Shown here one piece after another: positions 1,330-64,000 of a stretch of DNA of 64,000 nt. The number at the start of each line of letters is the position of its first letter. Position 1 is the stretch's first letter. The DNA is from Temnopleurus reevesii (lineage: Eukaryota > Echinodermata > Echinoidea > Temnopleuroida > Temnopleuridae), in contig BQKZ01001017.1 of assembly GCA_036244855.1 (NCBI GenBank), forward strand, positions 35,264 through 99,263. The letters run 5' to 3'. The translations under genes and the position numbers were made by a program. The notes beneath the pieces were generated by a model. That model made no database searches, was not told where the DNA came from, and saw only the letters and a list, made by a program, of their open reading frames with translations.

Positions 1330-2080
1330 CTTCATTACTTTACCAGTTGATAAGCCGATAATAGAACTGTTTTTCAAAAAGTTCTCTCTTGGGCACAAGT
1401 TGACGAGATCCTCGAAACTCGGACCATGAGTTCAATTACCATTTACATGTACTCTCCCCCTGCCCACCCCACCTCCCTTAAAAAGAGAGCAACAATGCTT
1501 GCCAGTTGATCAGCCAATAATAGAACTGTTTCTCTTGAACAGAAGTTGAAGAGATACTCTAGACTTGGACCAATTATTACCATTTTCTCTCCTTCTGCCC
1601 TCTCCTCACTATACTCCCTCCCTCCCCCTCCCAAAAAGGGGGGATCTAGAGCAATAATGGTTATCAGTTGATCAGCCAACAATAGAACTGTCTTTTAAAT
1701 TCAACTTGAATTCTCTTAAATAGAAGTTAAAGAAATCCTCTAGACTCAGACCAGGGTTTTGATTACAGTGNCCTCACTCTACTCCCTCCCTCCCCCTCCC
1801 AAAAAGGGGGGATCTAGAGCAATAATGGTTATCAGTTGATCAGCCAACAATAGAACTGTCTTTTAAGTTCAACTTGAATTCTCTTAAACAGAAGTTAAAG
1901 AAATCCTCTACACTCAGACCAGGGTTTTGATTACAGTTTATTATTATTCTGCCACCCCCCCCCCCAAAAAAAAGGGGGTGATTCAGAACAATAATGCTAA
2001 CTGTTTTTAACGTGAACTCTCTTGAACAGAAGTTGAAGAGATCTTCTAGACTTGGACCCAGGAATTCCATGACCATTACA
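1330..2080 (-). repeat. Tandem partial copies of CK1 exon 3
   Basis: Five diverged copies of the 3' half of CK1 exon 3 (family stretch [20 protein letters not shown]) lie directly downstream of the true exon in transcript order. Using the motif CCAGTTGATCAGCC or its remnant, copies lie near 1342, 1502, 1663, 1831 and 1990, against 2144 in the true exon, giving a period of about 160 bp. Only the edge next to the donor is repeated and all copies carry substitutions or indels. Copies near 1663 and 1831 are nearly identical and flank the single n at 1771, so one of them may be an assembly duplicate. Confidence 0.9.
1612..1940. repeat. Direct duplication about 160 bp long around the N at 1771
   Basis: The stretch starting CCTCACTNTACTCCCTCCC and ending GGGTTTTGATTACAGT occurs on both sides of the n at 1771 with few differences. 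It overlaps the CK1 exon-copy array, so one repeat unit there may be artificial. Confidence 0.8.
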
Positions 2081-2144
2081 TTGTAGTCACCCCCCCCCCC
2101 CCCCGAAAAAAGAAAAAGAGAAAAAAAAGAGAAACAATGCTTAC

Positions 2145-2293
2145 CAGTTGATCAGCCAGTAATAGAACTGTTTTTAACGTGAATTCTCTTGAACAGAAGT
2201 TGAAGAGATCTTCTAGACTTGGACCCAGGAGTTCCATAACCATTACATTGTAGTCCCCTTCTGCTCCACACCATTTCACTGTGGGAATACCAA
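2145..2293 (-). CDS. CSNK1D: CK1 coding exon 3
   Basis: Encodes [17 protein letters not shown] through LLLADQL, including the hinge region. The acceptor is TTTGCAG and the donor CTG|GTAAGC, phase 0. It is the only complete copy; five partial copies of its 3' half follow it in the intron (1330-2080). Confidence 0.95.
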
Positions 2294-5200
2294 CTGCAAA
2301 AACGAAATTGGAAATAGAGGTAAAATTAGAATTAATTCTAATAAAGTTCACCAATGTCTTTAACTTAAATCACTATAAATAATTAATAAATTAGTCTTTG
2401 CAAACATATATGTATAATGGTCATCCAGGACGGTGTTCGCCAAGTTACAAAGAATTTAAAAACTAATTTACGTACTCCAGTCTTTCTTAAAATTGTGTGT
2501 ACCTTTAAGAACGACCTAGTGAAAATCGCCCAAGATTTCAAGATGATTCCAATAAATAGGATTTGTTTAGAAGTTTGCCTGTTTTGGAATCGATCAAGCA
2601 GAAGTATTCCGCAAAAATAAACTCCTGTTACAAACAAAAACCAACAACAAAAACAGAATGTGTGATGAAAAATGAAAGTTTGATCTATTTTAATTACAAT
2701 TTTTTTATAAACTCTCATAGGAAGAGAGTTTCATGAAACAATTTTCAAAATGTAGGAAATATCATCATCATGGGCGGCCCTGCCTTCGCAAGGCATTGGC
2801 AACTACATGTACATGTATAGTCCTCCACATCCCTCTATCGTCCATTGATCTGAATAGATCAATCTTGAAAAAATATAATAATTAAATCCATCATTTATTC
2901 AAGATCTGTACATGTAACCTCATTCTTGCGAGACAATTCATCTCCCAAAACTAAAGTGTCTAATTTTTGTTTGGTCACATGATCCCGGGATCGCATCTCA
3001 GCGAGTCTGGTGGTGTGGCCTGATGTGAACTCTAGCTGAACTTTTGGAGAAAAGGTGGGGTTTCCATTTACAATGAAGGCAGTCTGGAGAAGGAGGAAGG
3101 GTTTTTATTGCCTCAATTTGCTGGTGGTCTGCATTCAACCATAGAGGTCTACATGTATAATCCAACACATTGGACATGAATATAGGCACACAGTCCATGT
3201 TCTTACTGTATAAAGCTAATATTTTGGCGTACAGATATTTATGCGATTTCTGACCAGTTTGCACATTGGCATGTTGCTATTTTCACGTTTTTGAAAGTGT
3301 TTGTACACAGATGCATGTGCATCATATGGAGTGGAAATTTTCGCGAGGCAATAACCGCGAAATTAGGAAAAATAAAACCACCGTGAAAATTTCAGCTTAA
3401 GATACTGTATGTACATTTACCATTAGAAGATGAGATCTATGTCCTGCCTTTGGTCTTACGAAATTAATGTTGAGGTTAAAGAGTCAAGTTCAAATATCAT
3501 AGTAATGTACTCTGTGTAAACCAACATTAATTTTGGACCTGTACATCAAAACATCAAATTACGCCTATAAAAATGGATATGACTTGACACAGAATATTGC
3601 AAAACTACATAAAAACTGCACAAAAGACATTCCAAATCAGTAATGATTCAGCAAAAAATTGTAGAATGCTGCTTTTATCAATAGGCATACATACAGTTTG
3701 CAAATCTCATAAATATATTGTGACTAATTTCAATTTGACTTCTGGTATTTAATAACACCAGTTACGGCCAGAATAAAAATCTCCTTATTAACCTTATCTC
3801 TCGTTCTAAATTATATTCTTTATCTTATTTGCAAATTGCAAATAAGATAATTGCGAATTGCAAATTCATGTCACGTACATCCTTTCACAAGTGATAAAGA
3901 TGACCCACTTCCTTACAATAATATCTAACAAAATTGTGCTTTTGTAAATGTGAGGGTAAATATATTTTCTTTCTCCTAAAACAAATAAAAGAATACCCAC
4001 AAAATAAGTGTGTAATACAAGAAAAATAACAACTTCTGTTTGTATTCATTCTTTTCCACTAGACATCACCCATTATTTTCTTTCCTTTCGTCACATCCTA
4101 CGTCAGCGAGTTATATTTACTTGAGGACACTACTATAAACTCAAGTGCGTGTTCATCCTCATATGACATCAGTGTTTACAATAAAGAAAAGAAATCATAT
4201 AACCCCACAGCAGGGGCTGGATATTTTCATGTCGTCTGGAATAATATGTGTGTGCACTGAGGCTTGCGAGTTTCATTTAGGGCGTATCACCGAGTTTCAG
4301 TTATGATAATGAAATCTAAAATGTTTTCAACTTGAAATAAACTGTTCTTACACTATCTATCATGCAAGAAGAGAGTTATATTTGGCATGCAAACCAAACT
4401 TGAAACAAATTGTGCAGATTAACCAGTACTTTCAATCCTCCATTATTTTCAAGCAAAGATATGAATACTCAATTAGGGGTTTCATTCCTAAGCGAGATTG
4501 CGTTGACAACGACTCTCGCTGCATACGCTATACAGTATATCGCATACACACGGGGCAGACTATGCACCATGGCACGCAAGTTCCTGGCACACACACACTC
4601 CCAAATCGGAGGTGTAGTGGCACGGAGAAATCAAGAAGACTCGTGAAAGTTCGTTTAGACTCGTTTTGTTTCGAGCGAAATTCGGGGGTTTTAGTTTCAT
4701 CATGNCTATAGTCCTCCACATCCCTCTATCGTCCATTGATCTAAATAGATTGATCTTGAAAATATACAAAAATTAAATCCATCATTTATTCAAGATCTAT
4801 ACTTGTAACCCCATTCTTGCAAGACAATTCATCTCCCAAAACTAAAGTCTAGAACTAATTTTTGTTTGGTCACATGATCCCAGGATCGCATCTCAGCAGA
4901 GCCTGGTGGTGTGGCCTGATGTGAACTCTGGCTGAACTTTTGGAGAAAAGGTGGGGTTTCCATTTACAATGAAGGCAGTCTGGAGAAGGAGGAAGGGTTT
5001 TTATTGCCTCAATTTGCTGGTGGTCTGCATCCAACCATAGAGGTCTAACATGTATAATCCAACACATTGGACATGAATATAGGCACACAGTCCATGTACT
5101 TACTGTATAAGCTAATAGTTTGGCGTACAGATATTTTCGCGATTTCTGACCAGTCTGCACATTGGCGTGTTGCTATTTTCACATTTTTGAAAGTGTTTGT

Positions 5201-24893: not shown

Positions 24894-24894
24894 C
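24818..24894 (-). CDS. CSNK1D: CK1 coding exon 1 (start codon exon)
   Basis: The acceptor CAATAG ends at 24895 and the ATG is at 24893-24891, one base into the exon, so a separate upstream 5' UTR exon is required. The exon encodes 25 residues including the P-loop and ends CTAG|GTAAGT in phase 1. Confidence 0.95.
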
Positions 24895-41582: not shown

Positions 41583-41651
41583 TAATGAGGTTGGACTTGT
41601 CTGCCAAAAATATACCAATATATAGTACTAGTGAAACATATACTGGTGATA

Positions 41652-43286: not shown

Positions 43287-43806
43287 TATGATACATTCTA
43301 CAAGCATTTACACATTATAATCTTTTAATATTTCTCCATTGAATAATTCAAATGACTTAAAAACATCCCTGTGTTACAATAGCGCAGCTGAGGTAAGTTT
43401 TACATTTGAATAAGTTACTTACATTATGTTCAGACAAGACTTATAATATCTAAGTAGGTAACCAGTTAACTCAATAATTGTAACTGAAACTCTTTAATTC
43501 CTCTCTCATTTTTATGTGTTTGCTTATTTCCCATGTTTTAGACTTTAAACATGATGTGAAAGGGGCTAAAGGAAGTGTGATGAATTATTGACATAAGAAA
43601 GAAACTACAAGAACATTATTGACATAGGAAAGAAACTACAAGAAAAGTATTGAATATCATTCTGCTGATTTTTAAACAAACCCTTTGGATGCAAATTTTT
43701 GGCGCAGATTACAAAGGTGTCGTAAATGAGGTCAGCTGTTTTGGGTGTAAAATAATGGGTCCTATTTAGCAATTCTGAAAACGAACTGTCCTATTCAGAA
43801 AGATAA

Positions 43807-43907
43807 AGGCCCGTATTCCGATAGCAATAGCAACTTTTGGCTACCCATACTTAAACCACAGATTTAGACCAGGGTTAACTTAAACCTCGCTACCGGAATA
43901 CGGGCCT
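43807..43907. mobile_element. 101-bp MITE with AGGCCCGTATTCCGATAGC ends
   Basis: The left end AGGCCCGTATTCCGATAGC is mirrored by the right end GCTACCGGAATACGGGCCT. Too short to code. Confidence 0.7.
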
Positions 43908-44109
43908 AAGACTATACCTCCTTTGAAATATTCACTGAAACATAAAATAACCATCAGGCTGATCATGGATCAACACATATTATACATGACTTTATGAACA
44001 ACTGGTGACAATTTCTCAGGTGTGATCCAGCAACAGGCGTTATCAATGAGTGCTGGAAAGGATCACCGGTCATTAGTAAATCAACAAACAGCTTTATGAA
44101 ACACAATTA

Positions 44110-44412
44110 TAATAATAATAATAGTAGGTCCATTTATATAGCGCAATCATTTTTTATATGCATAATACTCTACTGCGCTTGATACGAGGTACCATATTAT
44201 TACCCTGGCTATAACTGCTGAGCAAGCCAGTTAGGCGCTCAAGCATTCCAAGGAATAAATTCCTGTCAGGTACCCATTTTTCACCTGGGTTGAGTGCAGC
44301 ACAGTGTGGATGAATTTATTGCCGAAGGAAATTAACGCCATGGGTAGGACTCGAACCGCGGACTTCTGCCTGGAAGGCGAGAGTCAGAACCACTACATCA
44401 CGTCGCTTCCAC
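44110..44412 (-). mobile_element. tRNA-derived SINE, minus strand
   Basis: On the minus strand a tRNA-like head (A box near TGATGTAGTGGTTCTGAC, B box GGTTCGAGTCC) starts near 44410. The body runs to the left and ends in an ATTATTATTATT-type tail at about 44110. It lies just downstream of the TMEM94 stop codon. Confidence 0.75.
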
Positions 44413-44666
44413 ACAACCTACACAACCCTGATAAGATGTAACTAGCCCCACAGTGTTGGCCCACACTTAAAGAGTTGACCATCAATGTACAAGAATACAA
44501 AACCTTCACTAAGGATCATTCCATGAATACCAAGGGAATTACAAAATGAGGATGTCAACATATTTATTTGGACTGCAGTATGTTACTAATGATATCATTT
44601 CATATATCACTTCTACAGTTTGATGCACCATCATCCGGCAAGAAAGAGATTTGGATATTTGAATGT

Positions 44667-44739
44667 CTAGAAGGGAGAATTCATCCCAAGTTTGGTCCCA
44701 AACTGGAGTTTGGTTCTCTTCTGCCATCTCACAAACACC
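44667..44739 (-). CDS. TMEM94: TMEM94 last coding exon and stop
   Basis: Encodes VFVRWQKRTKLQFGTKLGMN SPF then TAG at 44669-44667. The C-terminal KLQF.TKLGMNSPF matches the human protein as I recall it. A minus-strand AATAAA at 44568-44563 could be the polyadenylation signal. Confidence 0.94.
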
Positions 44740-50700: not shown

Positions 50701-53700
50701 AGGAGCGTGAGGGATATGCTTTGCGGGACTGAAGCTATCGTGGAAGAGAAGATGACTAAAGACAGGTTGCAGAGTATACCGGTAGATAAAAAATGAAGAC
50801 GAAAAAGTGGACACCCAAATCAAAATAAATGTTAGGGTGGTGTAAGAGCAATTATTGCAAGAGAAAGATGGATTTGGAAACACAAGCCTTCACTAAAATT
50901 TGATCTTTGATAAAGAAATTGAAGATATATTTACCTGATATCAGCTTGAGCAAAGATGGGTGCATTTGCGATGTTGAGGCTGCTTCCCATACAACACACC
51001 ACCTCTCCATAGTCTTGCATGATCTCTACCATCTCACGAGTTGCTAGGGTTAACAAAATTAATGAATTGGTTATTCCATGAATTGGTCAACTGTTTCATA
51101 TTTCACTTTTTGATCTATTTGAGCCATACATATTTTATAGCATTAAATGCAGTTTACAATTCGCACATAGAGAACAAAATGTAAAAAATACAAAATACAA
51201 CTATCCTACTTATAAAGCTCTTTATGCAATGTTTCAAAGTGATATACTATATTTCATCAACCTACAAACCTATAGCTTTCAAAGAAATATTTCGAAGTCT
51301 ATTCCTTCAATTAACTTTTTTATTCATTCACTCATATTTTAAGTAAGAATTATAGGTGCATATTGTGCATATACATATACATGTGTTACGCAATGGAGAC
51401 GGACGTGTGATTTAATACCCGGTCTTGCTGCACCGCCTTATTTTTTTGCTTTCCTTGGATTAATACGTTTTTTCATCATTTTACAGCCCACCACTATCTA
51501 CTATCTTCATTTTGGAATATTCAAGCATAAATTGGTACTATTTTGGTTGTATTACTCATTTGAACTTCTTGGATTTTAACTACTTTTAACAGCACTGCAC
51601 TTGTAAAATGACCCATTACGAATTACGTTCTCAATCTACTACAAAAGCAACCATGTCCGATAGCAACCCCGCGGCTGATGCCGGGACAATGGATATTGAT
51701 GCACTTGGTTCGTTAAATAGAAACATGCAGGCCTCATTCTCTAAAGTTTTCGAGAAGCTGGATCACCTTTCTTCTGAGACAACAGCTATTAAATTGAAAG
51801 TCAATGAAATAGAAGGGGCTGTCGCCTTTAACTCAGAAAAGGTCAAGGAAATCGAAAAGGATATCATTCCTAAAGTGAAGGAAGGCCTTGAGGCAAAAAT
51901 TACAGATCTACAAAATCAGCTTACGACCTTGGAAATATACAATCGCCGAGCAAATCTCCTCTTTTACGGAATTCCTGAGGTCAACAAAGAAGATGTATGC
52001 AAAGTCGTCCGTAAGTTCATCGTCAACCTCGGAATCAACGAAGATGAGGCCAACAATATGGCTTTTGTTAACGCTCACCGTCTTCCGCGCCGCACACGGG
52101 TTAACGATAGAAGTCAACCACAAGCACCTAATGCGATAATTGTGAAGTTTGTTTATATGGATGACAGAAACAAAGTATTAGCGGCGTATGAAAATGGTGA
52201 TCGTCGACAACCGAGAGATCGCAACGCTTCTGCAACACAATCTCCGGGCTCTGATCTACAACGCATCTCCGTGCGCACAGATCTTCCGCCGGCCATGAAG
52301 GCCAGGCGAGGTCAACTAGCCAACATCGCCTACAAAATGAGAAAGAAAGATGGAGTTTCAACCAAGATCATCATACAAAATGCCACTGTTTGCCTGAAGT
52401 GGAAGCAGAAAGGTACAACCAAATGGAATGACTACAGTGAGTGACTAGAAGCATAAGGATTCTTATAGTCGGTGGATGATTCTGCTCTAATCCTGTTGTA
52501 TCTGTCATATACAAAAATGTAAAGAAATTCTTGTATGCAACTCGTTAGCAAATTTGTTTTAGTTTACTCAGAGATAATTAATTAGCCTGGTCTGACCTTA
52601 AGATATAAAATAGAAGTGAGCATGAAATGTTTATATTATTGGCTGACAACTCCAGCAATTTCTTTCAGTTCTATTGATATATTATCACTGTTTCCTGACA
52701 TCTAGATTATGAAATATGCATACCATGCAAGAAGAAACCTGTTTGTTTACATATAAGCAGTATTTTCCTACGTATATTACATCTACTGCTTGTCTCGAAG
52801 TTGTGTTCTACCCAACAGGTAACACTTTTGTATTACATTTGTTGAAAAAAACTACAACTTCAAACCAAGAAAATTAGATTACAATTCAGTATTTTTTACA
52901 ACAATGTAACTTCAGCTGTGTTCCTTTAATTATGAGTCCAGAAGGTTTTCATTGAGGTGATTTTCCTGTGTCAGAACAGAATTATGTTCCTAGACAGAAG
53001 AATGATTTATTTCTGTTACGTTTAGTGATTTTTTTTTCTATAAACTATAAGAAAGGAAAATACACAAACTCAACAAAAAAAAGAAGATATATTGTATGTC
53101 GGTTCCTTTTCCTCCTGTCTATGCCATTGAAAATATATTAATTTTATGCTTATGCAGTATTTCTTTAATGTACATTAGAAAAGTATAATATTGTCAACTA
53201 GGAAACTTTATTTAATTCAACTTGTATCTTGCGGTGCAAGCATGCTACCGTGGTATTCTGTCTCTAATTGTGTTATTGTATAGAGCCATATAAATGGCGC
53301 GTGTCTTGCAATTTGTTTTCACGTCTTTAATGATCCACGCACTTACATTCCAACCAGTTACGTTCTATAATAATACTTTGACATTCGCAGAGAAAAGAAT
53401 CGTTTTTTCAATTGTTATGCAGACAAACTCTTTTGCATGTTACATAACTCCTGTTGCCATAATCACATTGGCTGTTTGGTCACATTCTATCTACTTATTC
53501 ACTGTATGTGTAGTCACTCGGGCGACGCAGTTCCTATTCTGTTTGTCACAATATGAGATTTCTCTACATGATTTGCATTTTCTAAGATCACCGGCATATG
53601 TTTGTTGCTATTTGCCTTTAATAGGCGATTTCTTTCTTTATGTGACATCACTTCTCTTTAATGGCTGAGAATCTTAATGTGCTAAATGTTTTACCCCATC

Positions 53701-56700
53701 CTAGTAATGTACATGATGTAAGTCCTGAAATCAACAAACAAATTCCTAATACGACTGTTACAGATATTTATAATGAAAAAATGCCTGATCTTAATCTTAC
53801 TCATGATATGAATGATTTATCTGCACAAAACACTTGTTCTTATTACGTATTACCTCAGGACCTAAAATGTAAAAGCCCTGAGTCTGCTAGTAATTTTTCA
53901 ATTCTGCACTATAATATTAGAAGCTTGTGTAAAAATGTTGACCCTTTTCAACAGTTTCTCAACTCGTTAAATGTTGAAATTCCTGTCATAGGATTATGTG
54001 AAACATGGTTATCTGATCCCCTCACTTCACTTGTTCAATTGGACGGTTATTCACTCGTAGTTAATAATAGAGAAGATAAACATGGTGGCGGCGTAGCCTT
54101 TTATATTAGCAATACTCTCCAATTCAAAGTAATAAACGATTTGACATATATGACGGAAGCTTTTGAAAGCATTTTCATTGAAATTGAAATTTCATCTGGA
54201 AGAAATATACTTGTTGGTGAAATTTATAGACCACCCAACGGTAATGTAACAGATTTTTTAAACGTTTTGTATTCCTTTTATGAATCACCTTATTTTAAGA
54301 ACAAACATTGTTTTATAATGGGTGATTTTAACATCGACCTGCTTCACTACCATGATAAGCCACATTGTCAAGATTTCTTAGATACAATGATCTCCAGTTC
54401 TTTTATTCCTTGTATAACAAAGCCGACTCGCATTTTCGGCGATTCTGCGACGCTCATTGATAATGTTTTTACAAACGTTCTTAGTCATTTAGACATGGGT
54501 ATAATTGTTTCTGATTTAACAGACCACTTTCCTATTATTGTTTCTTCCCCCCACATACTCAATGGCAAACCAAACAATAACAAATGTCAAGGTTCAAGAA
54601 TAATGTCTGAACAAAACACTGAACGTTTTAAAGAATGCTTATCTGATGTTGACTGGTCAACGGTCCTGAATGGAACAAATGTAAACCAAGCTTATAACGA
54701 TTTTCTTAACATCTTTCTTCCATTATATGATCAACATTTTCCAGTGAGAAAATCGCTCAAATCAAATTATAAAACAGTACCTCGCTCTCCGTGGATAACT
54801 AGGTCTTTACTTAGATCAATAAATAAGAAAAATAAACTTTACTATAAATATAAATCAACAGGCGCAGATCAGGCTAAATGCAAATATTCAACTTATAGAA
54901 ATACTCTAACTTCTGTGCTAAGACAAGCAAAAAGAAATTATTTTTGCTCCTCGTTTCAAACTCACAGAAAAGACACAAGGTCAACTTGGAAAGTAATAAA
55001 TCAAGTTTTTAAAAAAGAAGGATCGAAAAAGAGTGTTAATAGGATTGTCTACGAGAATAAGGAGATTACAGATACCGCAGATATTGCTGAGGCATTTAAT
55101 TCGTTTTTTGTAAATATTGGCCCTAATTTGGCTGATAATATTCCTACGAGTAACAAACCCTTTCATTCTTTTTTGTCTAATCGAAATCCTCAAACTATCT
55201 TTTTTTCACCAGTCACTGAACAAGAAATTATAGATATAGTCAGAAATCTACCAGCAAAAAAAAGCTCGGGCTATGATGGTATATCTTATGATCTTCTTAA
55301 AAAAGTTATTCGTGAAACTGTTGTACCCTTGACGCATATATTTAACCTGTCCCTTCAATACAGTGTTGTCCCTGATAAGATGAAGGTTGTTAAAGTTATT
55401 CCTATCTATAAAAAAGGTTCAGAGGACGAATTGGGTAACTATCGTCCAATATCCCTGTTGACTACTTTCTCCAAAATTCTTGAAAAAACAGTACACACTC
55501 GCATCATAAAGTTTTTCACCACTTGTAATATTTTTATTAATTCACAGTTCGGATTTCGTAAAAAACATTCAACAGTGCATGCAATACTTTTGTTGATTGA
55601 TAGAGTTACTAAGGCGATTGATAGAAAATCTCATGTTGCTGGTATCTTTCTGGACTTCTCCAAGGCCTTTGACACGATCAATCATGAAATACTTTTATAC
55701 AAACTCTCTCATTATGGAATTCGTGGAAGGGCCTTGGAGTGGTTCAGAAGTTATCTTATAAACAGAAATCAATTTGTAACCATTGATAACTCCAATTCTG
55801 AAATACAACCCATTACCTGTGGCGTTCCTCAAGGTTCCCTTCTGGGCCCATTGTTATTTATTTTGTATATCAACGATTTTCAAAACTCATCCTCTTTACT
55901 TTCATTTCTTCTTTTTGCAGATGATACAAGCTTATTTTTTACACACAACAATCCACAAATCCTTCTTGATAGACTAAATGCTGAATTATGCTCTGTGTGT
56001 GACTGGGTGCAAGCAAATAAATTATCTCTTAACTTAAAGAAAACAAATTATATGATTTTTAGCAATTCGTTAAATACTTTGCCGGGTCATGTTTTAATGA
56101 ATAATAATGTTTTAGAACAAATAGAATCTACGAAATTCCTTGGTATCTTTATCGATTGTAAATTATCTTGGAAAGTACATATTGACTACTTATGTAAACT
56201 GCTGTCAAGAAATCTTGGAATCATGAACAAACTTAAACTTTATTTCCCTCATCATATTTTAAAACTATTGTATTCTACTCTGTTGTTACCATACTTGAAT
56301 AATGGAATTTTAGCCTGGGGAAATGCTTCCAAGACAAAACTTGAATCCATACTTAAAATTCAAAAGAGAGCTGTTAGGACAATTTCTTCCTCTGACTTTT
56401 TGGCACATACAAATCCTCTATTTTCTTCAAACAAACTGCTGAAAGTATCAGACTTATATTATTACTTTGTTGGTATTTTTATGTATCAGCTTAATACAAA
56501 TGAATTACCAAGTGTATTTTCAAACATGTTTGTTAGAAATCAAGAAATACATTCCTACCCAACCAGACAATTGCATAATTTTCACCTTTCCCCAGTGCGT
56601 ACTGTTCTTGCCCTCAAAACAATTACCTACACAGGACCCTCCTTTTGGAATGACTTAGACACTGATATAATTCAATCGCCCTCATTGTATTCCTTTAAGC

Positions 56701-59700
56701 GTAGGCTTAAAGAGTTTCTTTTACAGCCGTATGCTTGTACATAAATGTAGGTTTACGCTTTGCTCGAGTGACCACAATGTAGATTCGTTATTACAATTGT
56801 TTCTCACTTGATTCATGTCTCTTCATTGCGTTAGGAGTTTAAATCGATAACTATTTTCCTGGGAACCTATGTTGTACAAGCTATGCTTCTAAATAGGTTC
56901 CTCATATTTCACGTGATTGCATTTCTTTGTCAAACACTAATTGTTATTTTTGTCATTATGTTTAATTTGATGAGTTCAAGATCAATATTGTTTATTTGTG
57001 GAATGTGAAACAATAAAAACAATAAAACAAAAACATATAGCGTATCAATATATTAAATGGAAAAACATAGGATATAGCTGAAAAAATATAATAACATAAT
57101 CTCCATTTGTCAAAAAATCACAATTGATAAGCTACATAAATTCACTCATTAAAAAAACCCAGAAAGCAACCTGAAATAAATGATTGGCATGTCATACATT
57201 ATCCTTGTGGTTTTGATTGAAGGCAAAATAACTGTTAACAGTACCTGTATCATACAAATTTTACACATAAAATGTAAAAAAAAAAGTCACAGTGTTGCAT
57301 CTGATATGAACAACTTACTTTCTGGTGTAACATCAGTGAAGAGGGGCACAAGAAGTGGAACATTGTCTATCCTCTCTATATGGGGTCTGATGTTGGCTAT
57401 GCCTCTTGGTAGCTTGGCCTGGAGTGAAACAAAATTTGCATTAGAATTATGTACTGTAACAGCTAATATTTTAACGGACATACATTTTAGCACTGAATTT
57501 TAGACCTTGTCAGACATTTGCGACTAGCTGTTATTATGTTTTGAAAGACTATTAAACACAACTGTATGGGCATTCCAATGAATGAAAACTTGAGCGAATT
57601 CATGGTCGCAAAAATTGCAAAAATGTAAACCTAGCATTAATTCTAGCTTTCATAGTAATATTTAGGGCTTGTGCTATCTTTTTATACAATTGGTATATTT
57701 GTGAAGACTGACTAAATTCAACAAAGCAGATCATTCCCTTACTTGTAACATCAGCATGAAAGCAAATTATTTTTCTACTTCCAACATCCGAAAATTTACA
57801 AAAAGGAAACACCACATCTTGTTAAGATATAGTACATTAAACCTATAAGGCCTTCACACAGGGCAACTGCTCAATTTGTTATATCGCAAATGTATCGGAG
57901 AAAAAACACATTTCATGTAGATGAAAAAAATACAGGCAAATGTAATTTTATGCTATCAATGATGTAAACAAAAGAGGAAAGAAAAGAATCAGTGAAAACT
58001 TTGAAAAATGTACTTTTCAAAATGAAATAAAGTCACTATGATTTTCATAATTGTGTTAAAACTTACAAAACATATGCCTATAATACACACATGTGTGTTC
58101 AGTTGAATAAAAATTAATTATGCAAGATTTCTCACAATGGCATATGTTTGAGAAAAGAATCTTCTACTTTGAAATAAAACAATTTAACAAGAAATAGTTA
58201 CCCTATTTGAGATGTCAAAGCCTCCAGCTGTCTCACTCTCAGTCTGATGACTCAATGTGTCTGTTTCCGCCACTGAAACATCGCTATTAAACGTCTGAGT
58301 CTCTGATATCTGACGCTGTCTGCTGGCAAGATCAAATGACTTAGCCGACGGCTGACTCAAGAGGGCATCGGTCTCTTTGGCATCTTCGGAATTATTGGCA
58401 TTTGAGGAATCAGTGTGTGGAGATGTTGGAATGGATTGTGAGTTGGCTGATGATGGAGACGAGAGGTTGGATGTTGGGGAGGAAGGGTCCGACGATGATG
58501 TGACTGTTTGGCTGTGGTTGCCTAACAACGCATCCTCCTCTTTTGGTTCTCCTGGTTCTTCCTTAGAACTTCTTCTAGTGAAAGTCGCTGATTTCAGCTG
58601 CTCTTGTGAGGATTTCGTCCTTTTGTCAACGCTACGATCTGCTGTCGATGATGATGATGATGACTTCGCAAGTCCCTTTTCTCCATCTTTTTCCTTTCCA
58701 TCGTCATCATCTTCATTTGCATCTTCCGTATCTGCATCCCGGCTGCATGGTCGTCCCAATTGAGCAATGGACCCTCCTCTCCTGGCCACTGCCGCACTCC
58801 CATCAAATTCACAAGATGCATCAACATTATTGACATCTGTCTGTTGCTTAGCAACCGCATCACCTTTATCTCCCTCTTCTTCTGCTCCTACTACACTCTC
58901 CATGTCGACCACTACAACAGCCTCCACAGGATCAAAGCGGACTTTCTGTGCCTCTACCTCGATTTCAACCTAGAGAGGAAATGTGGATGCAAAGAAATTA
59001 GGACATCTTTAATGCAAAAGTGTGTCGTATATGAGGTGTTCTTATAAAAGAAAGGCAAAAGAAGGCAAGACTTCCCTAAAATAGCTCAAGAATCACACAA
59101 ATAATTTAAAAGTTGGAATTGCTTCATAAATAGCATCTCTGTGAGAATTACCATTAGAAAGTGAAATTTTACCATTAAGAAATTGTACATATCTCTTCGA
59201 AAATTTATTTTATCCACTGACACAGGGGTGGATGCGGGACACAGGGGACACAGAAGAAAAGAAAAAAAGCCAGAAATTTGTACATTATATTTCAGCTGCC
59301 GAGCTGACGTACAAGGCCCCCCCTCAAAAAAAAAAACCTTAATGAACAAAAAACAATTGGCGGTCTCCCTCCCCCTGGATCCGTCTATGTGACAAAACCT
59401 CTTCATAGATTAGAGCATTTTTCTGTGTCCCCCCCCCAAAAAAAAAACATTCTGATAACTATATCATTCTATTGACCTACCCCATTGGTATATGGATATA
59501 TGAAAAACTTAAATCAGATTACAATATGGTCACCAGAATGTGAAATTATATATATTTTGTCATACGGAACATTTTAAATATGGAATCCACAACTATATGA
59601 ATTTTGTATTCTGAATGATCATCAATATCAATATAATTTGGCGTCTTTTCAACAAAGAAAAAGATTCTACGTTAGTATTTCTGTACCTGTGCTTCATCAG

Positions 59701-61020
59701 CTGACTGAGGTGAAGTCTCCCCTCCTTCAGACTTGACTGCTTCGCCCGTATCGCTCTGCCGATTGCTCATCTCCCCATCTGTGATAGTGTTGTCATGTCC
59801 GCTGCTACTGTGGCTGGAGCAGTGCTGGAACGTGTCTGCGGAGTGAGGGAGGTGCGAAGAGCTGGAGGTGGAGGTCTCCTGATGGAGAAGGGATATATGG
59901 CAGTTCCAGCCGGCTTCAAGCCCAAGCTTCTCAGAAAATACCTGTTAGATAAAAGTTAAAATATGTAAAAGGGCTGTGGCTGGAGTACTGATGGAACATG
60001 TTTCCAGTATGAGGGAGGTAGAGGTCTCCTGGTGGAGGAGGGATATATGACAGTTCCAGCCATGCTTCTCTGAAAATACCTACAGAAAGACGATTGAAAT
60101 TCAATTTCAATAAACAAGAAAAATATCATTATAGGACAAAAAGAAGTGACAAAGATTGGCCCTGTGATACAATCATGATTGAGCTTGAGATATATGGTAA
60201 ATAAATATGAAGATGAGAAGGTTGCTGACGTTTAGCCTAAAGACCCAGCTTCTATGAAAATACCTATGGGATGAAATGTTCAAATACATCTTTAATAAAA
60301 TGTGAGTTGGCCTAACATTTATTGAAATAGTGATCCTAACATTTAAAATATTTTGATGAGTGTAAAGTTCTATGAATAATAATTATGTATTTACTTTCTA
60401 ACAGACCATATTTAAATTCAATCTAATTCAACCTTATTGTGTCATAAAAGAGAATTTATTTCAAATAAAACTGGTAAATTGCACCTCAATTGCTCAAATG
60501 TAAGTCATTTAGAAATGGACCAATAATTTAAAAAAAAAAAGAAAAAAGAAAGAAAAAAAAAAGATGGTATACCGAAGAAAAAGAGACAAGAAATAGATAA
60601 AGAGATGAAAGGATGGTAAAAATATATCAAGATCACTCAATAGACTCCTAAATCGGTAAATCGGCCCCAATTTGTGTGCTGAGTTCAGAACACCCCCCCC
60701 CCCCCCCCTACAAAAAGAGGATGTGAAAAGGTGGAAAGGTATAAACAATGATACATCAACCTACCCCAACTTTATATCATAGCAAAGAATCATAAAATTT
60801 TCGGAAGAGTTATATAAAGTCATGTGAATATTTACCCTGCTTCTCAATTCCTGGTCCCGTGAAAAGTGAACAAATCGTATACAGGCGTTGTCCAGCTGCT
60901 CCAAGAGGGCTACGATGTCTGATTTGGCTTGATAGTTACTGGTTACCATGCCGATGAAGATCTGCCCACATTGAGACCTGGGTAGGAGATAGAGAGCGAT
61001 GCAACAGGTTGTATCATCAA

Positions 61021-61058
<38 letters not shown>

Positions 61059-61419
61059 CCACCACCATTACAATCATAATCGTCATCATCATCATCACCA
61101 TCATTATTATCATCATCATCATCACCACCACCACAATCATCATCATTATCATAATCACCACCACCACCAAAATCATCACAAACACCACCACCATCACAAA
61201 TACCATCACCATCATCATCATCACCATCATCATCATCATAATCACCACCACAATCATCATCGTTATCATCATCACCACCACCACCAAAATCATCACAAAC
61301 ACCACCACCATCACAAATACCATCACCATCATCATCATCATCATCATCATCACCACCACCACAACCACCCTCATCATCCTTACCACCACAATCCCAATCA
61401 TCATCATCATCATCATCTT

Positions 61420-61460
<41 letters not shown>

Positions 61461-61486
61461 CCATCATCTTCATCATAATCATCATC

Positions 61487-61520
<34 letters not shown>

Positions 61521-64000
61521 CCATAATCATCATCATCACACCACCGCAATCATCATTATCACTACCACCATTACAACCACCCTCATCATCACCACTACCA
61601 CCACCACCACCACCACATTCATCATCATCACCACCACCATCATCACCATTACCACCACCACCACAATCATCATCATTATGATTCTCAATCTAAACTATTT
61701 ACCTGTAACATTCATCTGCACTCCTGATGGCTCCATTTTTATTCATAGTAGAATCAAGACTATGGTACTTCCTAGTCCGATGAACATCTGTATGCCGCTC
61801 TCTACTCGTATCCATATCCCAAGATGATCTATGGATGATAAATAAGTACGATATAATACACCCTTCTTCTCATATATTCCTAAACGCATGTCTGAGAACA
61901 ATAGACAGACATCTCCTTATACTCTAGATTTTCTATAAGACTGCAGTCAATATTTCAGTAGGGCCAAAAAATCAAAATTTTAAGGAAAATTGACAGGATT
62001 GGAGCAGGGGTAAAATGATGGCTTTTAAAATGTCAAAAACTAATTTAAAGGTAATTCCATCCACATGACCCAGTCATAAACTTTCTGATGAGGGGTTCAA
62101 AAAAAATCATAGTTAATATTAAATTTCAACCAAACTACATGCATATCAATTGTGAAAAAAATAAGGTAGAAATAATTTTTTTTTAAACCCCTCATGATTC
62201 TGATGATCCCACTCATCTTTAAATTCAGTTGATTCAATTATCATATATATACAAATTTGCTTAATAATAATTGCTCAACATTGTTTTTTATATCATATTT
62301 TTTCTGGATAAAAAATGTAATTTCTAGATAGTACCTGGCCAAGCCTGGGATTTCATTCATATACTGGTCATTAGGACGCTTATGATTTCCAGGTAACTCA
62401 ATGTAGAACTCTCCAAGCCGACTATCGATAGGCTCTGCCATAGGCTGGTATGCAAATGCTGTGCAGTAGGAGGAAAGGGTAGCTCGCTGGTAGAAATCTA
62501 GAATCTTCTTGCTGTAAATACCAAGAAAAAAATATGATATGAACTGGAAAGTGTGTTACGAATTTGAGAAAGCAATTTAAATGAGATACTTAACTCAGAC
62601 AATGATGTGAATGGAGGAAAAATACAATGATTAAACTGTGAAAACTTCAGCAAAATCTAACAGATCCATTCAAAAGTTATGAATTTTCAAAATTTCTACT
62701 TCCATCCCTCATGGGATCCTTATCGGCTCCCTTCAGGTACGAAATGGGTGTCAACATGGAGAACTCTCTATCCACTTTGTGCACAGAATTGCACATTTTC
62801 TTCTTTTCCTAGAAAAGTAGACAAAATTGTACTTTTCTCTTCAAATATAATAAGGAGATATTGATTCTGCATGTACTTTTGGGTGAATCTTGTTGATTCC
62901 TTGTCTACCTTTCTTTTAAAGGAACAAAATGTGAAATAACACTGAAAAAAATTGAGAGAAAAATTTCATTACAAATTTTTAGAATAAAAAGTAATGCTGA
63001 ACTATGAAGAAACTGTAATAACATAAAGTTTCATTTTCCTTACCATTCATTCTCTGTCAGTGAATAGAGGTCAGAGCCATCCCAGAATTCCGAGCAAAGG
63101 TCAAGAAGGAGGCTAGCACTTCCTTGGGTCAAGAGCTGTTGACAGCCTACCAAATAGAAATAGAATATCGATTTTGAAAATAGGTAATAGGAACACAAAG
63201 ATGAGTCAGGGAAAAACTTGAAAAGTTGTGTATTTTTTTTTAATTTTGAAGAACAATTGTAAAACACAATCCAAAAGTAGGATTAGAACAGAGAACCATC
63301 TCATAAGATATTTCAAATATCTCATATTTGTCCACATTCACCTCATATTGAGTACCATTTTTAAATACAGGGAGGTGTTTCACCAAGATAAGAAAGACTT
63401 TACGCACGACTTTACGTTCGACTGGTACCCCTTCTTGTGCGTAATTGTTCACATTATTACGCGCATTCAGCGCAAGAATTGATACCAGTCAAACATAAAG
63501 TTGTCGTCCAACTCTAAGTAAAGCATAAATCCATTCCATCAAATGAAAGGCATTTTGTATGTGTCAATATTCCTAAATTCTCTAGTAAAATGCAGAAGTA
63601 CACAAAATTAACAATTTGGTACTGGCTTAAATAAAACTTCTATCGAGCTACTTAATGATTTATTTTCATATCACTTTTATATTGAATGAAATTGACATCA
63701 GGAGTAATTCCTGTATTTTGTTTATCAAAATATGTTTCATGAAAACGTTAAAGGTTAAAAGTAAGAATAAAGCTGAACAAGAGGGACAAGTTCAAACTAT
63801 GACTCACCTGTACCGTCTTGTTTGACCAACACTGACAGTGTATGAGGAGCTGGGATACGCTTCTTGATGAAGGGTAAGGTAATATTATTTTAAAACTAAG
63901 AATAGAGCTGAACGAGAGGTTCGCTCTACAACTCACCTGTATTGTCTTGTTTGACCAACACTGACAGTGTATGAGGAGCTGGGATACGCTTCTTGATGAA
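44667..64000 (-). CDS. TMEM94: TMEM94 (ER magnesium transporter, P-type-ATPase-like), C-terminal part
   Basis: Multipass ER membrane protein related to P-type ATPases and proposed as a magnesium pump (family knowledge). Sixteen exons are visible: 64000(open)-63937, 63146-63044, 62511-62335, 61828-61703, 60977-60836, 59941-59687, 58969-58202, 57418-57319, 51043-50935, 50211-50019, 49124-48879, 48010-47865, 47035-46938, 46305-46212, 45484-45311 and 44739-44667. Every border has AG/GT, and exon lengths keep one frame throughout. Landmarks agree with my recollection of human TMEM94: CSEFWDGSDLY, KKILDFYQRATLSSYC, DNVPLLVPLFTDVTPE, VEIMQDYGEVVCCMGSS, ATGKNLREK, KPLWRKPPFKN and the C terminus KLQFGTKLGMNSPF. 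Exons 11-15 supply the last hydrophobic segments. The N-terminal half, including the phosphorylation motif, lies off the right edge. Confidence 0.95.
44846..45022. mobile_element. pogo/Tigger-like MITE in the last TMEM94 intron
   Basis: TA-flanked; starts CAGTGGAAACTCAGTATAAC and ends CTTTATAACGAGTTTCCCCTG. It sits between TMEM94 coding exons 15 and 16 as numbered here. A half-copy in the opposite orientation occurs at 48786-48833 in the intron between exons 11 and 12. Confidence 0.8.
45311..45484 (-). CDS. TMEM94: TMEM94 exon 15
   Basis: Encodes FILEIIFFAIDMGIWGRADV and, after the lumenal loop, LIGFLWPFVILFLCEAVKQY EI; these are the last two membrane segments. Acceptor CTACAG, donor CA|GTAAGT. 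Confidence 0.92.
45664..45820. mobile_element. Decayed GGGGTGTTGTTC-family MITE
   Basis: Carries the interior words CACTTGCAAATCAATTGCAA and CAACTTGCATATGATTGC with the family order, but the terminal words are lost. It lies in the TMEM94 intron between exons 14 and 15. Confidence 0.45.
46212..46305 (-). CDS. TMEM94: TMEM94 exon 14
   Basis: Encodes TSSASFVHCLKPLWRKPPFK then NHLWCAVVCVL (human HVHRTKPLWRKSPLTNLWWAV). Acceptor TTATAG, donor TTT|GTAAGT. Confidence 0.92.
46505..46750. mobile_element. Palindromic MITE, ATTGGATGGCAATGAATGG family, second copy
   Basis: TATCTATATGAGAGTT (46507) and AACTCTCATATAGATA (46581) bound one block. ATACCAGGGAATATTGAAC and its inverse ending ATTGCCATCCAATAT bound the other. 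It lies in the TMEM94 intron between exons 13 and 14. Confidence 0.7.
46938..47035 (-). CDS. TMEM94: TMEM94 exon 13
   Basis: Encodes NLTTHWNGWRGELSSHYVLA and QNIQAFLLTLYF. Acceptor ATCAG, donor TCA|GTAAGT. Matches the human WFEDFANGLLSAQKLTAAL region. Confidence 0.88.
47170..47335. mobile_element. Decayed GGGGTGTTGTTC-family MITE
   Basis: GCAATTAATTGCAAATCAGC and GATCAACTGCGACTTGC, with a degenerate left end GGTGTTTTTTGG and right end AACATCCC. It lies in the TMEM94 intron between exons 12 and 13. Confidence 0.5.
47392..47835 (-). repeat. Tandem partial copies of TMEM94 exon 12
   Basis: Three diverged copies of the second half of exon 12 (CHSLTLFAFCKETAENP region) end near 47707, 47551 and 47392, against 47865 in the exon, a period of 156-159 bp. 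The most distal copy keeps an acceptor-like TTTGCAG and the donor ACAG|GTAAGA, so it could be spliced as an alternative or cryptic exon. The middle two have damaged donors. Confidence 0.9.
47865..48010 (-). CDS. TMEM94: TMEM94 exon 12
   Basis: Encodes HMVLFCFFFLTKFLGSVVMC to CHFILHNR, a membrane segment. Acceptor TTCCAG, donor ACAG|GTAAAA. Three partial copies follow, one with a better donor (GTAAGA at 47391). Confidence 0.9.
48786..48833. mobile_element. pogo/Tigger-like MITE, half copy
   Basis: GGTCCCAAGCACCTCGTTAT followed by the terminal sequence GAGTTTCCACTG and TA matches the left end of the 44846 element in reverse. The other half is absent. Confidence 0.6.
48879..49124 (-). CDS. TMEM94: TMEM94 exon 11
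   Basis: Encodes ARGVCSGMINCFTFFIFGLL, two hydrophobic membrane segments and VMTQATGKNLREKNSD. Acceptor T8-AG, donor GAT|GTGAGT. Notably GC-richer than its surroundings. Confidence 0.94.
49198..49312 (-). repeat. Upstream partial copy of TMEM94 exon 11
   Basis: Repeats GMINCFTFFIFGLLTLSSIQ and the following LLCTLLFLPPPL at about 95% nucleotide identity, offset 198 bp, with neither acceptor nor donor preserved. It is the youngest-looking exon copy in the window. Confidence 0.88.
49490..50000 (-). repeat. Tandem partial copies of TMEM94 exon 10
   Basis: Three diverged copies of the 3' two-thirds of exon 10 follow its donor. Copy words include TSHGRTSPLDVTTLLTSLPC (49.9 kb), SHGRTSPL (49.75 kb) and a frameshifted remnant at 49.55 kb. 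Donor-like sites lie at 49838, about 49675 and 49495 against 50013 in the real exon, so the period is 163-180 bp. The first copy keeps both frame and GTAAGT. Confidence 0.9.
50019..50211 (-). CDS. TMEM94: TMEM94 exon 10
   Basis: Encodes IGMEPLLPHICMSKEHSYPK and onward through LTSLPCSLSFHRLDHISLIS to LIRE. The human counterpart is IALDPLYP...LNSLPCSLTF. Acceptor CTACTAG, donor GAG|GTAAGT. Three partial copies follow it. Confidence 0.93.
50935..51043 (-). CDS. TMEM94: TMEM94 exon 9
   Basis: Encodes TREMVEIMQDYGEVVCCMGS then SLNIANAPIFAQADI. Matches human MIKIMQEYGEVTCCLGSS and the SDI that follows. Confidence 0.95.
51608..52444 (+). CDS. LINE ORF1, coiled-coil/RRM-type nucleic-acid-binding protein
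   Basis: 278 residues. Residues about 30-110 are heptad-like (coiled coil). Then comes NRRANLLFYGIPE and a block with AHRLPRR and AIIVKFVYMDDRNKVL, which resembles the RRM-like core of LINE ORF1 proteins. The C-terminal part is basic (MKARRGQLANIAYKMRKKDG). In LINEs such proteins coat the RNA and chaperone target-primed reverse transcription. An alternative start (MSDSN) lies 15 codons in. Confidence 0.8.
   Translation: MTHYELRSQSTTKATMSDSNPAADAGTMDIDALGSLNRNMQASFSKVFEKLDHLSSETTAIKLKVNEIEGAVAFNSEKVKEIEKDIIPKVKEGLEAKITDLQNQLTTLEIYNRRANLLFYGIPEVNKEDVCKVVRKFIVNLGINEDEANNMAFVNAHRLPRRTRVNDRSQPQAPNAIIVKFVYMDDRNKVLAAYENGDRRQPRDRNASATQSPGSDLQRISVRTDLPPAMKARRGQLANIAYKMRKKDGVSTKIIIQNATVCLKWKQKGTTKWNDYSE
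53294..53668 (+). CDS. Hydrophobic open frame between LINE ORF1 and ORF2
   Basis: 124 residues, very hydrophobic, with several possible membrane segments (for example MIHALTFQPVTF and SFACYITPVAIITLAV). It ends eight bases into ORF2: the ORF2 start and this stop share ATGGCTGA. The overlap could permit termination-reinitiation. Equally, T-rich sequence yields hydrophobic frames by chance. No family recognised. Confidence 0.3.
   Translation: MARVLQFVFTSLMIHALTFQPVTFYNNTLTFAEKRIVFSIVMQTNSFACYITPVAIITLAVWSHSIYLFTVCVVTRATQFLFCLSQYEISLHDLHFLRSPAYVCCYLPLIGDFFLYVTSLLFNG
53661..56744 (+). CDS. LINE ORF2, endonuclease and reverse transcriptase
   Basis: 1027 residues. The N-terminal apurinic-like endonuclease (about residues 80-300) shows NIRSL, GLCETWL, GGGVAFYI, EIYRPPN, GDFNID, LIDNVF and TDHFPI. 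The reverse transcriptase (about 500-800) shows YDGISYDLLKK, NYRPISLLTTFSKILEK, GIFLDFSKAFDTINHEIL, GVPQGSLLGPLLFILYINDF and the catalytic FADDTSLF near residue 752. A C-terminal region follows with LPYLNNGILAWGNA. No stop or frameshift. The family nicks target DNA and reverse-transcribes its own RNA there. Confidence 0.95.
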   Translation: MAENLNVLNVLPHPSNVHDVSPEINKQIPNTTVTDIYNEKMPDLNLTHDMNDLSAQNTCSYYVLPQDLKCKSPESASNFSILHYNIRSLCKNVDPFQQFLNSLNVEIPVIGLCETWLSDPLTSLVQLDGYSLVVNNREDKHGGGVAFYISNTLQFKVINDLTYMTEAFESIFIEIEISSGRNILVGEIYRPPNGNVTDFLNVLYSFYESPYFKNKHCFIMGDFNIDLLHYHDKPHCQDFLDTMISSSFIPCITKPTRIFGDSATLIDNVFTNVLSHLDMGIIVSDLTDHFPIIVSSPHILNGKPNNNKCQGSRIMSEQNTERFKECLSDVDWSTVLNGTNVNQAYNDFLNIFLPLYDQHFPVRKSLKSNYKTVPRSPWITRSLLRSINKKNKLYYKYKSTGADQAKCKYSTYRNTLTSVLRQAKRNYFCSSFQTHRKDTRSTWKVINQVFKKEGSKKSVNRIVYENKEITDTADIAEAFNSFFVNIGPNLADNIPTSNKPFHSFLSNRNPQTIFFSPVTEQEIIDIVRNLPAKKSSGYDGISYDLLKKVIRETVVPLTHIFNLSLQYSVVPDKMKVVKVIPIYKKGSEDELGNYRPISLLTTFSKILEKTVHTRIIKFFTTCNIFINSQFGFRKKHSTVHAILLLIDRVTKAIDRKSHVAGIFLDFSKAFDTINHEILLYKLSHYGIRGRALEWFRSYLINRNQFVTIDNSNSEIQPITCGVPQGSLLGPLLFILYINDFQNSSSLLSFLLFADDTSLFFTHNNPQILLDRLNAELCSVCDWVQANKLSLNLKKTNYMIFSNSLNTLPGHVLMNNNVLEQIESTKFLGIFIDCKLSWKVHIDYLCKLLSRNLGIMNKLKLYFPHHILKLLYSTLLLPYLNNGILAWGNASKTKLESILKIQKRAVRTISSSDFLAHTNPLFSSNKLLKVSDLYYYFVGIFMYQLNTNELPSVFSNMFVRNQEIHSYPTRQLHNFHLSPVRTVLALKTITYTGPSFWNDLDTDIIQSPSLYSFKRRLKEFLLQPYACT
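57319..57418 (-). CDS. TMEM94: TMEM94 exon 8
   Basis: Encodes AKLPRGIANIRPHIERIDNV and PLLVPLFTDVTPE, near-identical to human. The LINE lies in the intron that follows. Confidence 0.95.
58202..58969 (-). CDS. TMEM94: TMEM94 exon 7, long acidic and serine-rich insert
   Basis: 256 codons open in phase 0 between acceptor CTCTAG and donor AGG|GTAACT. It begins VEIEVEAQKVRFDP and ends GGFDISNR, joining AKLPRGI in the next exon. Composition is strongly Ser, Asp, Glu and Thr with runs such as SSSSSS and DDDD. It looks disordered and cytosolic, and is much longer than the corresponding human segment as I recall it. Confidence 0.9.
59687..59941 (-). CDS. TMEM94: TMEM94 exon 6
   Basis: Encodes VFSEKLGLEAGWNCHISLLH (human VFAEKMGLETGWNCHISL) followed by about 60 Ser/His/Glu-rich residues ending SPQSADEAQ. 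85 codons, phase 0 at both ends. Its 5' edge is duplicated upstream at 59965-60085. Confidence 0.93.
59965..60275 (-). repeat. Upstream partial copies of TMEM94 exon 6
   Basis: At 59965-60085 the first part of exon 6 (GGATATATG.CAGTTCCAGCC and the acceptor-side TCTGAAAATACCT) is repeated, offset about 150 bp. A weaker third remnant (CCCAGCTTCTATGAAAATACC) lies at 60250-60268. The copies retain the acceptor edge but not a full frame. Confidence 0.75.
60836..60977 (-). CDS. TMEM94: TMEM94 exon 5
   Basis: Encodes SQCGQIFIGMVTSNYQAKSD, IVALLEQLDNACIRFVHFSR and DQELRSR, a well-conserved block (human GQIFMGMVSSQYQA...NACIRFVYFS). The (CAT)n array lies immediately upstream in the intron. Confidence 0.94.
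61012..61682. repeat. (CAT)n / (ATG)n array about 0.66 kb long
   Basis: Plus strand is almost pure CAT/CAC with occasional AAT interruptions, in the TMEM94 intron between exons 4 and 5, ending about 20 bp from exon 4. It creates long spurious frames of His (plus) or Met/Val (minus). Confidence 0.95.
61703..61828 (-). CDS. TMEM94: TMEM94 exon 4
   Basis: Encodes SSWDMDTSRERHTDVHRTRK and onward to SADECYR. The RSSW start matches human RRSSW. Charged, probably cytosolic loop. Confidence 0.88.
62335..62511 (-). CDS. TMEM94: TMEM94 exon 3
   Basis: Encodes KKILDFYQRATLSSYCTAFA, YQPM and a stretch to EIPGLAR. Acceptor TTTACAG, donor CCAG|GTACTA (non-consensus at +4/+5). Confidence 0.92.
62640..62900. 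mobile_element. Diverged fragment of the foldback family
   Basis: Shares the interior word TTCAAAAGTTATGAATTTTC and CTCATGGGATCC-like sequence with the element at 10566-11168, in the same order, followed by the TTGATTCTGCATGTA segment. Ends are lost. It lies in the TMEM94 intron between exons 2 and 3. Confidence 0.6.
63044..63146 (-). CDS. TMEM94: TMEM94 exon 2
   Basis: Encodes CQQLLTQGSASLLLDLCSEF then WDGSDLYSLTENE. Acceptor GGTAG, donor ATG|GTAAGG. Confidence 0.92.
63369..63505. mobile_element. MITE, GGGAGGTGTTTCACCAA family
   Basis: Contains internal inverted words such as TTCGACTGGTACC and GGTATCAATT/GATACCAGTC, and shares its left half with 26838-26900. It lies in the TMEM94 intron between exons 1 and 2. 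Confidence 0.5.
63808..63873 (-). repeat. Downstream partial copy of the TMEM94 edge exon
   Basis: Repeats FIKKRIPAPHTLSVLVKQD with the donor ACAG|GTGAGT, offset 129 bp from 63937-64000. There is no acceptor AG directly before it, so it is probably a partial copy rather than a separate exon. Which copy is spliced cannot be decided here. Confidence 0.75.
63937..64000 (-). CDS. TMEM94: TMEM94 exon 1 of those visible (cut by the window edge)
   Basis: Encodes FIKKRIPAPHTLSVLVKQDN then a split codon at ACAG|GTGAGT. It continues past the right edge. A second copy of the same 3' end lies at 63873-63808 with its own donor. Confidence 0.8.

Follow-up and report, generated by a model that had tools for sequence, protein, structure and literature searches.

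It has been reported that about 10% of animal genes contain tandemly duplicated exons, with more than 2,000 unannotated candidates, according to passages of PMC9013439, which also refer to the account by Letunic, Copley and Bork (2002) of tandem exon duplication, unannotated copies in the adjoining DNA included. The copies described here resemble the cases in those passages in that exon-similar segments lie beside an exon and are found by searching the neighbouring DNA (PMC9013439), but they are mostly partial, one-edged and broken, which does not make them candidates for mutually exclusive exons. Internal gene duplication, cited in passages of PMC4974935 and PMC3443670, is similar in that short within-gene duplications carry splice sites along; here, unlike there, no new intron was seen and existing introns gained splice-site-like sequence. 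In the AGGT model, doubling of an exonic AGGT supplies a new intron with its two sites. That model and the present locus have in common a tandem duplication that spans a splice junction, whereas the copies here lie within an existing intron, and the intron gain through AGGT duplication brought up in the first-pass annotation was not found in the window. No description of this pattern in echinoderms was found in targeted searches of open-licence papers. The kind of duplication is thus known, and what is newly measured is a form that is partial, carries an exon edge and decays, present at about 7% of exons; the interest lies in its frequency and clustering, not in a new mechanism.

The window, that is, the whole stretch of 64,000 nucleotides analysed (C1016:35264-99263), reaches the right end of its contig in an assembly of 558 Mb in 10,433 contigs. 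The exon models of TMEM94, one of its three genes, have GT-AG ends and in-frame joins and give 914 codons including the stop, and their peptides match human TMEM94 (PDB) and urchin TMEM94. The TMEM94 fragment shares 80% of aligned residues with Lytechinus pictus, 79% with Strongylocentrotus purpuratus and 65% with Diadema; judged from sequence, the host is an echinoid. Self-BLAST recovered all seven exons for which diverged partial copies had been claimed (CK1 exon 3, MRPS7 exon 5 and five TMEM94 exons), with one to five copies each. The genes, exons and copies, the last read per array by eye and by codon alignment, are as follows:

Exons 24818-24894, 17610-17720 and 2145-2293, minus strand: CK1 gene (tblastn to CK1, and splice sites for 2145-2293)
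About 31.2-35.8 kb, plus strand: MRPS7 gene
44667-64000, minus strand: TMEM94 gene
61703-61828, minus strand: further TMEM94 exon, absent from the 914-codon model and recognised later by alignment to relatives
2145-2293, minus strand: CK1 exon 3, source of the array (tblastn, splice sites)
1999-2091, minus strand: CK1 copy 1, 96% identical over 93 bp, frame open there, donor lost
1833-1958, minus strand: CK1 copy 2, in-frame stops, donor GT changed to AT, one flank of an N join
1665-1766, minus strand: CK1 copy 3, opposite flank of the N join at 1771
1503-1598, minus strand: CK1 copy 4, gapped, donor GT changed to GC
1344-1448, minus strand: CK1 copy 5, gapped, 81% identical, GT retained
34790-34927, plus strand: MRPS7 exon 5
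34606-34668, plus strand: copy of MRPS7 exon 5 before the acceptor, AG retained, in-frame stop, shift 188
63937-64000, minus strand: TMEM94 exon at the contig end, 3' part only
63808-63871, minus strand: copy of the 63937 exon past the donor, GTGAGT retained, shift 135
59687-59941, minus strand: TMEM94 exon VFSEKLG...
59974-60079, minus strand: copy of the 59687 exon before the acceptor, AG retained, two deletions
50019-50211, minus strand: TMEM94 exon IGMEPLL...
49844-49988, minus strand: copy 1 of the 50019 exon past the donor, 145 bp ungapped, open, GTAAGT
49682-49815, minus strand: copy 2 of the 50019 exon, 13-bp deletion, GTTAGT
49502-49650, minus strand: copy 3 of the 50019 exon, indels, GTAAGT, differences mainly synonymous
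48879-49124, minus strand: TMEM94 exon ARGVCSG...
49208-49310, minus strand: exon-only copy of the 48879 exon before the acceptor, without splice site, 7 synonymous and 0 nonsynonymous differences
47865-48010, minus strand: TMEM94 exon HMVLFCF...
47708-47793, minus strand: copy 1 of the 47865 exon past the donor, disrupted
47552-47678, minus strand: copy 2 of the 47865 exon, gapped, GTTGAT
47392-47496, minus strand: copy 3 of the 47865 exon, gapped, GTAAGA

The side of the copies was as claimed in all seven exons: in four of them (CK1 exon 3 and the TMEM94 exons at 63937, 50019 and 47865) the copies follow the donor, and in the other three (MRPS7 exon 5 and the TMEM94 exons at 59687 and 48879) they precede the acceptor. 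In the long arrays, for which spacings of about 160, 170 and 158 bp had been given, the measured shifts were 159 bp in CK1, 162-181 bp at 49465-50163 and 159-161 bp at 47365-47963, and these three arrays were also detected by Tandem Repeats Finder; in the other four cases the shifts were 135-198 bp. Continuous alignments at constant shift extended over 825 bp at 159 in CK1 and, in TMEM94, over 461 bp at 161 and 528 bp at 181. Head-to-tail units spanning exon and intron were observed in CK1, in MRPS7, in the arrays at 49465 and 47365 and in the gene-family loci fetched from elsewhere, so that the proposal of a local duplication process was supported, most units being continuous tandem arrays that include some intron. 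The description of each copy as exon edge plus splice site plus intron failed for 49208-49310, which is exon sequence only; alignable intron was short in two others (11 bp at 63808 and 1 bp at 59974). The copies diverge by 7-32% (BLAST). Eleven of the 15 window copies are gapped or carry an in-frame stop in local alignment to their exon and four are ungapped and open; the copies are partial, that of the 63937 exon being judged from C6474 because the contig end cuts the exon in the window, and do not combine a whole exon with both splice sites, phase and open frame, as a mutually exclusive exon would.

A second version of TMEM94 was found on contig C6474. Genome searches with two TMEM94 exons returned C6474 exons 92% and 96% identical to those of the window, with 16 synonymous and 0 nonsynonymous differences in one and 9 and 1 in the other, so that the proteins differ at one residue; from these sequences both versions look to be under constraint. 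The identity of C6474:25501-36300 (L040, L042, L043) to the window is patchy (72-97%), with up to 35% synonymous difference in one exon, and C6474 is either a diverged haplotype or a paralogue. The 63937 exon, truncated in the window by the contig end, is complete in C6474 and has, by direct reading, two copies past its donor where the window has one; these copies are partial, and the case is valid in spite of its position at the contig end because the whole exon is present there. The 59687 exon has one copy in both versions (in C6474 an upstream repeat of 135 bp at shift 171), and the 50019 exon has one decayed copy in C6474 against three in the window. Beside its 48879 exon, C6474 has no match to the 49208 copy and carries its own 79-bp duplication at a 106-bp shift at the same acceptor. 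Copies were thus inherited, gained and lost over the time separating the two versions, and because the versions share some copies and differ in others, most arrays are not artefacts and are turning over. MRPS7 exon 5 was matched only in C1016, the corresponding 5 kb fetched from C6474 being all N. A source elsewhere in the genome was rejected: in searches that scored few candidates at first look, four TMEM94 pieces returned their local copies, plus C6474 for three of the four, while the fourth returned the window array only among the few candidates scored, the fetched C6474 stretch there being N.

As claimed, no N lies in the window arrays other than that of CK1. There, copies 2 and 3 abut exactly at the N at 1771, with 97.6% identity over 166 bp, and are the only near-identical copies abutting a single N among the seven arrays. 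Copies of at least 60 bp on both sides were found at two of eight single Ns (window 1771 and 15366) and at 0 of 188 random control positions. Among the other six, L025:4588 has an exact 34-bp copy, window 4705 has a copy on its right side only, and four have none. The repeat at 4705 is 90% alike, abuts the N on the right and stops 252 bp short of it on the left; that at 15366 is 79% alike. Two additional Ns gave an abutting pair 94% alike (L028:5843) and nothing (L028:8215), and no tandem copies were found at the single Ns in L003, L011, L017, L020 and at L028:8215. Because the two CK1 copies are so alike and abut at an N, and no random control position had such copies on both sides, one CK1 copy is probably an unmerged overlap, with a single copy represented twice as copies 2 and 3. 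It seems that overlaps were left unmerged by the assembler and linked through one N, and single-N joins in such assemblies can produce false tandem copies.

To cover the genome, the assembly was searched with the Pfam profiles Myosin_head, Kinesin and AAA_6, which match exon by exon (candidates scored: 65 of 201 for myosin, 122 of 217 for kinesin and 117 of 117 for dynein). A local copy was defined as a same-strand match less than 1.5 kb away that overlaps the other by at least 25 profile positions. Such copies were present at 4 of 64 myosin, 7 of 114 kinesin and 7 of 77 dynein AAA_6 exon loci, the DNA-level check covering the myosin and kinesin places and the dynein count resting on profile matches. 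Pooled, this gives 18 of 255 loci (7.1%, interval 4.2-10.9%), or 17 of 255 without the dynein case C704:9937/10354, which may be two adjacent exons. At all 11 myosin and kinesin places the fetched DNA contained tandem repeats, 74-96% alike, with smallest shifts of 154-226 bp; nine hold no N, while L035 and L038 hold one each, and the wide-spaced pair in L035 may be partly owed to its N. When the best-scoring match at each place was taken as the exon, the 31 extra copies comprised seven about whole and 24 partial ones. In 23 of these 24 an upstream copy kept the 5' part of the exon or a downstream copy the 3' part, the sole exception being a C5847 copy in an array whose coding exon is uncertain. 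A tandem duplication across one exon edge yields this geometry provided that the coding exon is preserved, whereas inserted random pieces of exons would not. On these screens the pattern is genome-wide in this echinoid assembly. One kinesin exon (C142:72001-73400, L029) is flanked by copies on both sides, four of them upstream with shifts of 159-162 bp and a single one downstream with a shift of 181 bp, and a continuous alignment there covers 598 bp at shift 159. A myosin exon (C3849:36701-38500, L036) carries a long acceptor-side array with shifts of about 190-210 bp. On C5847, profile matches place two arrays of dynein exons, with spacings of about 160-180 bp, at a distance of 4 kb from each other.

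The copies are unevenly distributed among genes. In L020 (C19:100001-110000) there is an LRRK2-like gene, two of whose exons are 98% and 100% identical to an L. pictus LRRK2-like protein and a third of which differs from it at few residues. Four of its five exons have clear copies (one upstream array, one whole duplication, one upstream partial and one downstream partial copy) and the fifth a weak downstream match (E 0.14); the exon pair at 2801-2977 and 3005-3170 looks whole. No copies were found in two C3 genes over 20 kb (L004/L027; 17 predicted exons) or in aquarius (L017; five). We take the two C3 genes to be eIF4A3 and a radial-spoke protein, the profile match being named Helicase_C only. 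Copies thus occur at 5 of 16 exons in TMEM94 and at 4 of 5, plus the weak one, in the LRRK2-like gene, against 0 of 22 predicted exons in three other genes or gene pieces.

These observations are probably explained by tandem duplication followed by a selective filter and decay. Small tandem duplications, mostly of about 130-400 bp, would arise throughout the echinoid genome, and a unit crossing one exon edge would be tolerated only when the coding exon remains whole. Surplus pieces would then land on the intron side, each with an exon edge and usually a splice site, and some would amplify into arrays. While the surplus pieces, presumably without function, decay, the coding exon would stay constant, so that such pairs may be recognisable for longer than intron-only pairs. 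The process looks like ordinary small-scale DNA duplication, unusually frequent, and not a new machine. Speaking against this explanation are an excess of exon loci with copies (18 against 7.5-10.6 expected), the lack of intron homology at 49208, the synonymous skew in 5 of 14 pairs and the C5847 exception, and the strong clustering of copies in two genes does not follow from it.

The bias to exon borders claimed in the first-pass annotation was not established, since a partly overlapping unit must cross an edge and its copy survives only on the intron side, so that edge anchoring follows from geometry and selection. Duplication targeted to exon borders, through splice-site R-loops, exon-positioned nucleosomes or GC steps and with a preferred unit near 160 bp, is considered rather unlikely, though several counts lean towards it. 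Of the 25 exons in the window, 7 have a copy, and 7 of 9 duplication groups overlap an exon where random placement expects 1.94 (P 0.0008, a post hoc value because the window was picked for the pattern; the pair at N 15366 was excluded as a join). Among the 17 groups in 10-kb pieces sampled by position on other contigs, 4 did so against 1.27 expected (P 0.03; one satellite group in L028 excluded), but all four belong to one gene: copies were seen at 4 of 32 predicted exons, all LRRK2-like, and at 0 of 27 in other gene loci. For gene-bearing loci alone the figures were 4 of 8 groups against 2.15 (P 0.13). Since at a strict threshold the ab initio exon finder detected 8 of the 25 known exons, the sampled exon counts are lower bounds, and some apparently exon-free groups may touch an exon. 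The non-exon DNA covered, about 261 kb, contained 15 groups without a known exon, a density of 0.0575 per kb. If each exon has a footprint of 0.32-0.45 kb, this background predicts 4.7-6.6 of the 255 loci, or 7.5-10.6 after correction for 1.6-fold longer visibility (both rough estimates), where 18 were observed; the comparison of rates is only partial, the screens using protein profiles and the background DNA. Exon-touching duplications thus exceed the non-exon background 2.7-3.8-fold, and 1.7-2.4-fold after the rough decay correction (P 0.0008-0.023 with 18 loci, 0.002-0.041 with 17). Part of the excess is due to the slower decay of pairs in which one copy is constrained; the rest may be real or under-corrected, since 1.6 would be an underestimate should indels make intronic parts decay faster, and the similarity of the 48879 pair, confined to the exon, suggests that they do. 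The excess is modest and unproven. Of the periods, 14 of 23 with an exon fall within 150-200 bp against 3 of 15 without a known exon (P 0.02, range chosen after seeing the data), but the medians are alike (184 and 174, P 0.81), so that the proposed nucleosome-like spacing was rejected, the higher share in this post hoc range being a weak hint of it. The window units also consist of long exonic stretches with little alignable intron, as expected if exonic homology keeps pairs visible.

Unmerged haplotypes placed in tandem by the assembly likely account for one CK1 copy and the large repeats at the Ns at 4705 and 15366; as an account of the pattern they are scarcely credible, given that the other window arrays hold no N, that their copies are 7-32% divergent and contain partial exons, that copies are common to C6474 and that nine of the 11 myosin and kinesin places are free of N. 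A whole-array artefact was rejected accordingly, only the N-flanked copies fitting it. Two further readings concern the coding signal of the TMEM94 copies. Fewer nonsynonymous differences than in a simulated neutral copy were found in 5 of 14 exon-copy pairs: 49208 (P 0.004-0.011), copies 1 and 3 of the 50019 exon (P 0-0.006) and copies 2 and 3 of the 47865 exon (P 0.01-0.04), these values being uncorrected for multiple tests and pairs within an array not independent. The other nine were at P>0.05, and a fifteenth pair, with two differences only, both nonsynonymous, was excluded. CpG hypermutation was rejected as the cause of the skew, four skewed pairs being unchanged when 1-, 5- and 10-fold rates were simulated on five pairs. 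That some copies are, or recently were, alternative exon parts translated under selection would agree with the 7 to 0 count at 49208-49310, with the skew at 49502-49988 and 47392-47678 and with the strong splice sites retained in some copies. It is nonetheless very unlikely, as nine of 14 pairs fit neutrality, the tests are uncorrected, the 49208 copy lacks usable splice sites and gaps or stops occur in 11 of 15 copies. Measured against the C6474 exon, copy 1 at 49844 is moreover less skewed (12.3 synonymous, 10.7 nonsynonymous), because part of the change lies on the window exon itself. The skew was rejected as proof of function on the grounds of the neutral pairs, the uncorrected tests and the change on the exon branch, and the preferred reading cannot fully explain the synonymous-biased differences of some TMEM94 copies.

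The 49208-49310 piece is odd in combining synonymous-only differences with the lack of a splice site and of intron homology. It begins 12 bp inside the exon and also ends inside it, and no alignable intron was found on either side, so that it does not appear as a tandem unit; intron homology is also lacking at the 59974 copy, but the gap there is just 32 bp. Exon-only pieces of this kind could come from templated insertion or from exchange with another diverged TMEM94 version, which the missing intron homology, the 187-bp stretch around the piece (49131-49317) without match in C6474 and the synonymous-only differences, suiting a donor that was a functional exon, would favour. This origin is quite unlikely, since the genome search with the piece yielded, among the few candidates scored, the exon, its C6474 counterpart and the piece itself, but no donor with those differences; the piece is also unlike both exons at four sites, and at one more the three sequences each differ.

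If about one exon in 14 has an adjoining partial copy, there is a large stock of ready splice sites and exon fragments which, if true, could feed alternative splicing and the growth of introns and could lead gene prediction to call false exons. A clean test is possible, with tandem duplication being either uniform along genes or favouring exon edges. On a bolder reading, which is improbable, echinoid introns grow by edge-preferring duplication that leaves splice-site arrays and scraps of exon beside about 7% of exons, mainly in certain genes, and a few scraps remain under coding selection until they are adopted as alternative exon parts.

Three minor observations concern the genes of the window. 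In MRPS7 exon 3 (34197-34362) the frame appears to shift midway relative to human MRPS7; this may be an assembly error, a polymorphism or a sign of a broken gene. A TMEM94 intron contains a LINE-like retroelement on the plus strand (51590-56741), with a 1032-codon open frame encoding reverse transcriptase and endonuclease domains and preceded by a 284-codon frame; the spacing of matches in C6474 suggests that it is absent there. An impure long ATC repeat also lies in a TMEM94 intron, at 61013-61676.
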